64,000 nt of DNA from Candidatus Methylomirabilota bacterium (GTDB taxonomy: Bacteria; Methylomirabilota; Methylomirabilia; Methylomirabilales; Methylomirabilaceae). The notes below the pieces were generated by a model that was given only the letters and a program-made list of their open reading frames with translations, did not search any database and was not told the DNA's origin. Positions 34,997 through 36,458 of this stretch are shown here, piece by piece. The DNA lies in NCBI GenBank assembly GCA_003104975.1, contig PQAM01000006.1:62001-126000 (forward strand), in the 5' to 3' direction. Position 1 is the stretch's first letter. Every line of letters begins with the position of its first letter. The position numbers and the translations under genes were made by a program.

Positions 34997-35021
34997 GCTG
35001 GGGGGGATCGCCCCCCCCAGC
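34997..35021. terminator. GC-rich hairpin downstream of the micropeptide ORFs
   Basis: GCTGGGGGGG and CCCCCCCAGC form a 10-bp perfect stem with a loop of about 5 nt. A second stem, ATCATAC/GTATGAT, lies at 34957-34976, with an AT-rich palindrome ATAATATTAT next to it. For minus-strand transcription from the micropeptide genes the hairpin is followed by CGACATCTTATAATAATATT, which is not a clean U tract. It may be a weak terminator or a repeat. The rest of 34661-35163 has no gene I can support. Confidence 0.4.
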
Positions 35022-35163: not shown

Positions 35164-35217
35164 CTACTTCTTCTTCGTCGCTTTCTTCGGAGCTGCCTTC
35201 TTCTTTGCCGCTGCCAT
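35164..35217 (-). CDS. 17-residue Lys/Ala-rich basic micropeptide
   Basis: Encodes MAAAKKKAAPKKATKKK, with nine lysines in 17 residues, resembling the tail of histone H1-like or ribosomal proteins. It is preceded by AAAGGAGGTGAGGACC, a near-perfect ribosome binding site with a spacing of about 11 bp. The same leader (GGTGAGGACC plus ATGGC) precedes the next ORF 52 bp upstream, so the two are tandem paralogues. Function is unknown: it may bind DNA or RNA, or be a leader peptide sensing lysine. It is too short for standard gene finders. Confidence 0.55.
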   Translation of the reverse strand: MAAAKKKAAPKKATKKK

Positions 35218-35269
35218 TGAGGTCCTCACCTCCTTTCCCTGTTAAGGCCTCTGCTACCGCTGATTGAGG

Positions 35270-35341
35270 CTAGCACCCTCTTCCGCCCTTCTTCGCTGTC
35301 TTTGGTGCCGGCTTCTTCGCCTCCTTTTTCTTCGCGGCCAT
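35270..35341 (-). CDS. 23-residue Lys/Ala-rich basic micropeptide
   Basis: Encodes a 23-residue peptide beginning MAAKKKEAKKPAPKTAKKG, very rich in lysine, alanine and proline, with a C-terminal Cys. The leader AAAGGGGGTGAGGACC is nearly identical to that of the neighbouring 17-residue ORF. Duplication of the whole leader-plus-peptide unit argues that translation is real and selected. It lies 48 bp downstream of the HEPN gene on the same strand. No family assignment is possible beyond its histone-H1-like composition. Confidence 0.55.
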   Translation of the reverse strand: MAAKKKEAKKPAPKTAKKGGRGC

Positions 35342-35389
35342 TCGGGTCCTCACCCCCTTTCCACGCCATCGGCAATCCGGTCGGCATCG

Positions 35390-35839
35390 CTAGAGAAACG
35401 CCAACTGAGGATTTTTATCCCGCGCCAGATCCATAAGCCGATCAATCAATACCTGCGCATCCTTCAACGCCTCTTCCACCTCGTACCGAGGAATCGGGGT
35501 CTGTGGCTCATCCATAAAGTCCTGCCGCTTGCGCCGCATTCGATCGAACCCGTTGACAAGCGTGCGTCCCTCGTCACCCAACAGTTCCCCGATCAGCGTT
35601 ACGAAGGTTCGTGCCTGCTCGCGCCCTTTCACCCGCCACCCCTCCGCCAACGTTACGGCCTTCGCTGCTCTCAGTATGGCCTGATACGCAATGATGTACG
35701 CCCACTCCTTATCGATGCTGAGATTCGCCCGTGCTGTCGCCATATCCTTCGCTGCGCGCGCGAGCAGCGTCGACACCTGACGGAAATCGGGTCGAATTTC
35801 CTCCACCAACCCCCGTTCTCTAAGGTCCTCATAGGCCAT
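35390..35839 (-). CDS. HEPN-domain protein (putative toxin partner)
   Basis: 149 residues, all-helical. FRQVSTLLARAAKDMATARANLSIDKEWAYIIAYQAILRAAKAV is typical of HEPN proteins (SAV_6107-like). HEPN toxins use an Rx4-6H RNase motif, but this protein has no histidine at all; the expected region reads MRRKRQDFMDE. It may therefore be inactive, use a variant RxxR(N/Q) site, or act by binding. The start ATG 35839 overlaps the upstream MNT gene by 11 bp, the usual MNT-HEPN arrangement. Confidence 0.8.
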   Translation of the reverse strand: MAYEDLRERGLVEEIRPDFRQVSTLLARAAKDMATARANLSIDKEWAYIIAYQAILRAAKAVTLAEGWRVKGREQARTFVTLIGELLGDEGRTLVNGFDRMRRKRQDFMDEPQTPIPRYEVEEALKDAQVLIDRLMDLARDKNPQLAFL

Positions 35840-36398
35840 CGTCCGTCCCGATGAGGATCGACCTCCGACCCATGAGCACCTCCACGAGGAACGGGTCGTT
35901 CTCCGCCTTCCGCCGATGATATTCCGTTTCGTCAAACACGAGATAGTGGATCTCCCGGCTCAAGCGGCCCTCCAACACCCTTACGGCATCGTTCAGGTCG
36001 TTCAAATCGACCTGTCCGATCACCATCAATCGTATAGGGCCGAGCCCTTCCTCGCCCTCAAGCTGCTCAGCCCCGTACACCATGGCCCGCTGGATTCCCT
36101 TAATCCTTCTGAGCCCTTCTCGGAGACTGGCATAGATACCAGTCGTCTTGGCAATAATTGCCCGCATCTCACTGTACAGGGGCGACGCCTTGTTGGCCCG
36201 ATAGTACCGAAGATTCCCAACCTTTTCGCTAGCCAGCAAACCGGCCCTTTCCAGGTTGTCCAACTCTCGCTTGATCCCGGAGATGTCTCGCCCAAGGTGT
36301 CGCGCCAATTCCCTGACGTAATAGCGCTTATCCAACCTAGTAAAAAACAGTGTGAGAATACTTACCCGTATTTCTGACGAGAATAACCGGATCAACAA
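35829..36398 (-). CDS. Winged-helix + nucleotidyltransferase-like (MNT) antitoxin/regulator
   Basis: 189 residues. The N-terminal winged helix (VSILTLFFTRLDKRYYVRELARHLGRDISGIKRELDNLERAGLL, about 12-56) is fused to an MNT-type nucleotidyltransferase. The catalytic pattern GSx10DxD is degenerate: it reads VYGAEQLEGEEGLGPIRLMVIG, with GS changed to GA and both aspartates missing. It may act as a DNA-binding regulator instead of an AMPylating antitoxin. The start is TTG at 36398 with GAGGTG upstream. Three 7-bp operator-like half-sites cover its promoter (see entry). Confidence 0.8.
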   Translation of the reverse strand: MLIRLFSSEIRVSILTLFFTRLDKRYYVRELARHLGRDISGIKRELDNLERAGLLASEKVGNLRYYRANKASPLYSEMRAIIAKTTGIYASLREGLRRIKGIQRAMVYGAEQLEGEEGLGPIRLMVIGQVDLNDLNDAVRVLEGRLSREIHYLVFDETEYHRRKAENDPFLVEVLMGRRSILIGTDDGL

Positions 36399-36458
36399 CA
36401 GCCCACCTCACCATTGGCGTTGTTGATATTTTTACAACAACCGTTCTTTTCATGTCAA
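36393..36458 (-). promoter_or_regulatory. Promoter and three-half-site operator of the MNT-HEPN operon
   Basis: On the minus strand TTGACA (36453-36458) is followed after 18 bp by TAAAAA (36429-36434). Centred on that -10, GTTGTTG (36419-36425) and CAACAAC (36435-36441) form a perfect 7-bp inverted repeat with a 9-bp spacer. A third half-site, CAACAAC (36393-36399), lies on the start codon. The region is AT-rich compared with its surroundings. Autorepression by the winged helix of the MNT protein is the obvious inference. Confidence 0.65.

Follow-up and report, generated by a model that had tools for sequence, protein, structure and literature searches.

Tandem lysine- and alanine-rich micropeptide genes of Methylomirabilota share an operon with a HEPN/MNT-type gene pair that lacks its catalytic motifs

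With regard to its closest described counterparts, the locus studied here touches two groups of systems. In HEPN/MNT toxin–antitoxin pairs, the MntA antitoxin requires the motif GSX10DXD to adenylylate a tyrosine of the HEPN partner, and these motifs matter for MntA and HepT (PMC7641770), while no antiviral role has been confirmed for PDC-M05, a related pair listed in PADLOC as a candidate defense system (PMC12988326). The second group comprises lysine-rich low-complexity proteins, i.e., Hc2 and the KPAA-repeat C-termini of AlgP and PhaF; for AlgP, its KPAA-repeat peptides have been shown to bind DNA in vitro and its tail to position polyphosphate granules (PMC9239181).

The operon described here was found in a stretch of 64,000 nucleotides (hereafter the window) from a 3.0-Mb genome, with Candidatus Methylomirabilis and Methylomirabilota MAGs as its closest named relatives. 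It resembles HEPN/MNT and PDC-M05 in that both genes match and the predicted fold is MntA-like, and differs from them in lacking GSX10DXD and the HEPN acceptor-tyrosine region, in the addition of a consensus promoter and K/A peptides, and in that the HEPN gene is sometimes missing. With Hc2 and the AlgP/PhaF C-termini the peptides share a lysine content of about 60%, A/T/P low-complexity repeats of variable number, polycationic charge and expected disorder. In contrast to these proteins, they are typically 10–31 aa long, stand alone without a folded domain, are encoded by genes in tandem and belong to an apparently dead HEPN/MNT operon.

Two micropeptide genes and their expression signals

The operon consists of a near-consensus sigma70 promoter, a gene for a winged helix-turn-helix (wHTH) nucleotidyltransferase, a HEPN gene, one to three K/A peptide genes and a terminator, and the window micropeptide genes are its last cistrons (Table 1). 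A first-pass annotation of the window had proposed tandem, duplicated micropeptide genes that escaped annotation; they proved real and both ORFs fall exactly within positions 35164–35341, whereas their location on the minus strand and the wHTH-nucleotidyltransferase/HEPN context had been missed. The residues K, A, P, T and G make up about 85–100% of both peptides. The leader is indeed duplicated, as GAAAGGGGGTGAGGACCCGA-ATG for peptide 1 and GAAAGGAGGTGAGGACCTCA-ATG for peptide 2; 3–4 bases lie between the leader as quoted earlier and ATGGC. Both ribosome binding sites (GAAAGGGGGTGAG, GAAAGGAGGTGAG) pair with nearly the entire 3' end of 16S rRNA, and the duplex energies of -16.9 (peptide 1) and -17.8 kcal/mol (peptide 2) are stronger than the best value for any candidate start of the 45 other window genes (-16.7 kcal/mol, median -8.6), in agreement with the earlier description of these sites as near-perfect. 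The spacer between the peptide genes is 52 nt long in each of 10 Methylomirabilis species and 50 nt in two deeper ones, with peptides of varying length on either side, and this constant spacing may be relevant to ribosome loading or RNA structure.

Table 1. Positions of operon elements in the window
Feature	Position	Strand	Description
-35 element	36453..36458	-	TTGACA; perfect in 51/51 peptide-linked loci
Operator-like inverted repeat over -10	36419..36441	.	GTTGTTGTAAAAATATCAACAAC; candidate site for autoregulation by the wHTH protein, binding putative
wHTH + MntA-type nucleotidyltransferase-fold protein	35829..36398	-	189 aa; PADLOC PDC-M05A, E=3.6e-41
HEPN-domain protein	35390..35839	-	149 aa; PADLOC PDC-M05B, E=2.5e-13
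RBS of peptide 1	35347..35361	-	GAAAGGGGGTGAGGA; 16S complementarity, comparison across loci
Micropeptide gene 1	35270..35341	-	MAAKKKEAKKPAPKTAKKGGRGC, then stop; 23 aa
Inter-peptide spacer with second RBS	35218..35269	-	alignment of relatives
RBS of peptide 2	35223..35237	-	GAAAGGAGGTGAGGA; 16S complementarity, comparison across loci
Micropeptide gene 2	35164..35217	-	MAAAKKKAAPKKATKKK, then stop; 17 aa
G+C-rich hairpin ending the unit	34997..35021	-	GCTGGGGGGGGCGATCCCCCCCAGC; kept in genus

A perfect TTGACA is present in the 110 nt preceding the first gene in all 51 testable loci in which wHTH-nucleotidyltransferase and peptides are linked, compared to 4 of 36 unlinked homologues, with mean promoter scores of 10.5 and 8.7 of 12, respectively. 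The -10 region TGTAAA follows about 17 nt beyond the -35 element and lies within an inverted repeat, which has arms of 7+7 nt in Methylomirabilis, is kept in most species of the genus and is weaker elsewhere. In 48 of the 52 loci, the last peptide is followed by a G+C-rich hairpin, accompanied by a T-run in Nitrospirota and lacking one in Methylomirabilota. A scan of the window for consensus promoters and terminators detected neither site because the -10 region and the T-run deviate from the scan rules; both emerged on comparison across loci. Judged from these elements, the operon appears to be a complete transcription unit with very strong expression signals.

Both reading frames are intact in every relative within the genus, as established from locus alignments found by DNA similarity, such that the broken frames which the first-pass annotation had named as evidence against coding were sought and found in none of the relatives. 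Across the genus, peptide 1 is 13–32 aa long and peptide 2 is 14–23 aa long, and the length steps always correspond to whole codons. The synonymous-rich substitution pattern that had been suggested as a check is present as well: in 290 same-length gene pairs, a set chosen by a composition filter that somewhat inflates the synonymous excess, 702 of 827 codons with a single change are synonymous and 125 non-synonymous (85% vs. an expected synonymous fraction of 0.18), and third codon positions account for 828 differences as compared to 222 and 215 at the others. The syntenic genus alignments, found by locus DNA similarity, give the same pattern, and for 31 peptides two or more different coding sequences exist. 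A strict filter for K/A micro-ORFs preceded by a Shine-Dalgarno (SD) sequence returned 318 hits in the loci and none in 1.42 Mb of Markov-shuffled sequence; only the latter zero counts as a control because the presence of such genes was the reason for retrieving the loci. Searches against Rfam gave no match in the window. By this sequence evidence both ORFs are genuine protein genes, and the peptide genes as a whole class are overlooked by gene finders.

The upstream gene pair and its linkage to the peptides

For the first protein of the operon an ArsR-type wHTH plus an MNT domain is predicted (pLDDT 82; matches to SqrR, HlyU and MntA 6m6u/8xeo), and a relative of the window HEPN protein matches Pfam HEPN. 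As in HEPN/MNT toxin–antitoxin systems (Class II, PF05168), MNT-fold and HEPN genes are neighbors, and they are homologous to these systems by descent, while neither GSX10DXD nor the acceptor tyrosine is intact. The window protein reads GA...GPIR in place of GSX10DXD, and both GS and DXD are retained by 35 of 36 unlinked proteins vs. none of 53 aligned linked ones. Likewise, the HEPN motif R(N/H)xxxY with the acceptor tyrosine is present in unlinked and lost in linked proteins. Taken together, the two losses in the linked clade mark the HEPN/MNT pair as apparently dead. As the predicted fold is still that of an ArsR-type wHTH plus MNT protein, the DNA-binding part appears to be retained although the catalytic motif is lost, and the pair is now probably reused as an autoregulator.

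Homologues of the wHTH-nucleotidyltransferase were searched in Nitrospirota, Methylomirabilia and Desulfobacterota and the sequence downstream was checked for peptides. Peptides are present in all 52 loci of one clade comprising Methylomirabilota and Nitrospirota and in none of the 36 relatives outside it. Sorted by identity to the window protein, peptides accompany 39/39 homologues at 45% or more, 13/16 between 38 and 45% and 0/33 below 38%. Three Nitrospirota loci first taken as exceptions carry forms of 28, 29 and 108 aa, and the three peptide-free loci in the intermediate range all belong to Desulfobacterota. Two of these (L266 and L269) have intact motifs; in the third (L267) the nucleotidyltransferase motif is partly changed (SDIG), the HEPN frame is broken by a stop and peptides are lacking, a state that may represent the onset of decay in a peptide-free locus. 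HEPN/MNT homologues with intact motifs and no peptides include one from the same order and several in the class.

Phylogenetic analysis placed the peptide-linked proteins in a single clade (support 100/98) that was recovered in 100% of bootstraps. In a Nitrospirota subgroup without HEPN, the peptide still follows 42–75 nt behind the wHTH-nucleotidyltransferase. Because linkage, promoter and motif loss share one ancestral branch, a single event followed by persistence is indicated instead of independent repeats. From these alignments and trees we infer that the operon descends from a HEPN/MNT pair of the PDC-M05 type in which adenylylation chemistry was lost a single time, before or during its spread through Methylomirabilota and Nitrospirota.

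Two further observations concern the operons of these phyla. Genome counts for PDC-M05 in PADLOC may take in such non-enzymatic copies. Furthermore, the C-terminal Cys of peptide 1 (window positions 35270–35275) is retained across most of the genus, and a Cys at the end of the first peptide is found in several operons of both phyla (…KGGRGC, …KKGKC, …KKKKC; six loci). It is the most regular residue other than K, A, P, T and G and may serve the formation of disulfide dimers or attachment.

Similar peptides beyond the genus

Scanning of a sequence collection of 257 Gb yielded at least 118 matching stretches, most of those listed being in-frame micro-ORFs, where we estimate that about 0.3 matches to the pattern would be expected by chance. 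Methylomirabilota and Rokubacteria almost invariably carry tandem pairs, and the gene is single in Patescibacteria, Phycisphaerae, Brocadiales (beside SMC), Verrucomicrobiota, Desulfobacterota, Omnitrophota and some phage contigs. A similarly strict pattern matched 49 of 81 genomes of the class, with no match for the reversed control, as well as 4/197 genomes of Nitrospirota (6 matches, 4 real), 4/150 of Phycisphaerae and 3/137 of one Patescibacteria class (7 matches, 3 real); these counts are lower bounds because the pattern, with its gap limits, fails to match even the pair in the window, and the figure for Nitrospirota is far too low according to the protein-based search.

In other phyla, similar peptides adjoin SerRS/SecA, SMC, MutS and other genes without the wHTH-nucleotidyltransferase regulator, which is therefore not required for the peptide. 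In seven Patescibacteria loci a single K-rich micropeptide gene follows SerRS and, in loci that extend far enough, precedes SecA; several have a terminator of their own. Six viral contigs feature SD sequences and similar Cys-bearing micro-ORFs, the peptides being MACKKGGKKK, MACKKKKGKKKK and MACKSKKPKKK. In Rokubacteria (L038:3294-4343, L083:2889-4001 and relatives), tandem peptides follow a different wHTH protein of 350–370 aa, and thus a DNA-binding regulator is encoded upstream there too. This protein shows a borderline match to AbiEi_2 and its predicted N-terminal part is weakly similar to the nuclease NucS/EndoMS; with the former match borderline and the predicted structure weak (pLDDT 63), we do not claim it as an MNT relative. 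One ORF cluster beside the Rokubacteria peptides was judged spurious, and two further clusters look like antisense ORFs.

Proposed function and alternative readings

Across 224 distinct genes the peptides consist of 59% K, 25% A, 6% T and 3% P and are 9–108 aa long. The low complexity in K, A, P and T and the variable repeat number are those of HC2-type proteins. At the operon position studied here, the product spans 12 aa (MAKKKKAGKKKR) to 108 aa, and the occupation of this slot by 54- and 108-aa forms in two Nitrospirota genomes suggests growth or shrinkage by repeat number. The likeness to histone H1 noted in the first-pass annotation was borne out by the 108-aa form, which scores 46.7 bits against Pfam HC2 (PF07382; cut-off 40), a similarity that stems from composition and may reflect convergence. 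The window peptides and the forms of 28–54 aa remain below this cut-off or do not match; in a family profile search no family cut-off was passed by the forms of 17–31 aa, the 31-aa form from Methylomirabilis having HC2 as its best, sub-threshold match. None of the PDB chains matches the peptides, and in open-licence papers nothing relevant was found on lysine-rich micropeptides or on the sequence itself. The peptides are most likely minimal H1-like polycations and look like the shortest histone-H1-like proteins known.

Our preferred reading, to which we assign a probability of roughly 0.6, is that an operon derived from a dead HEPN/MNT pair is autoregulated by its wHTH protein and produces abundant H1-like polycations that bind nucleic acids. 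As suggested by its domain, the operator and their position, the wHTH protein would repress or tune its own promoter via the inverted repeat over -10. Together with the tandem gene copies, the strong promoter and the very strong ribosome binding sites would then give bulk output of a short, disordered polycation of about 60% lysine, acting like the tail of histone H1 (cf. Hc2 and the AlgP C-terminus) and binding DNA or another polyanion such as RNA or polyphosphate by charge. Selection would act on net charge and not on sequence or length, and the nucleoid would be compacted or organized under a condition sensed by the wHTH, pseudo-nucleotidyltransferase and HEPN proteins. Binding of RNA, polyphosphate or ribosomes would account for the composition equally well as DNA binding does.

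It appears unlikely that the peptides associate with ribosomes instead of DNA, as tiny basic ribosomal proteins or hibernation factors. In size and charge they do resemble bTHX, bL37 and eL41, the signals for high expression would fit, and outside Methylomirabilota, Nitrospirota and Rokubacteria there is usually one gene per genome in a housekeeping-like setting (SerRS–peptide–SecA in Patescibacteria). However, known tiny ribosomal proteins are constant in length and occupy an rRNA pocket with invariant side chains, whereas the peptides vary from 9 to 108 aa, conserve no residue besides K and A, are not universal, being patchy outside Methylomirabilota by the strict pattern, and resemble no PDB chain.

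Given their strict neighborhood with PDC-M05A/B homologues, the peptides might alternatively be the third part of a HEPN/MNT toxin–antitoxin or anti-phage system that is still active, e.g., a co-antitoxin or RNA chaperone. We regard this as distinctly unlikely: the linked clade has lost both the transferase motif and the HEPN tyrosine, the peptide often persists without HEPN, distant HEPN/MNT homologues with intact motifs never occur with peptides, and PDC-M05 itself lacks a confirmed antiviral role (PMC12988326).

The extreme SD strength, the runs of lysine codons and the constant 52-nt spacer could also point to a lysine- or translation-sensing leader or a ribosome decoy, in which translation of AAG runs behind a super-strong SD would matter and not the peptide. 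The lysine-sensing leader considered in the first-pass annotation is not supported because the peptides end the transcript, with the hairpin behind the last of them, and the next gene differs among lineages. Moreover, indels and the 108-aa version preserve protein composition while synonymous codon choice drifts, and a leader or decoy is thus very improbable. An antimicrobial function was considered and dropped. That the sequences are no genes at all, rather purine-rich low-complexity repeats or structural RNA as their low complexity and duplicated leader might suggest, is scarcely credible in view of the conserved frame, start, stop and synonymous pattern, the lack of Rfam matches in the window and zero matches in Markov controls.

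Returning to the H1-like polycations, we tentatively consider it possible, at somewhat less than even odds, that they form a new class of bacterial chromatin, in which encoded polycations of mostly 9–31 residues are produced in bulk under a dead HEPN/MNT pair turned transcription regulator, with its core in Methylomirabilota, common in Nitrospirota and with similar peptides in Patescibacteria, Planctomycetota, Desulfobacterota and phages. Such a class would be invisible to annotation because its members lie below gene-length cut-offs. In any case, whole bacterial groups carry a conserved class of peptide genes whose expression signals are very strong and whose length causes gene callers to overlook them. 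The operon illustrates clearly how a toxin–antitoxin pair that apparently lost its chemistry once became a constant companion upstream of a chromatin-like peptide, and some loci scored as PDC-M05 defense systems are probably not defense systems. Finally, an H1-like tail in the form of a free peptide of 10–30 aa would offer a sharp test of whether net charge alone makes a nucleoid protein.
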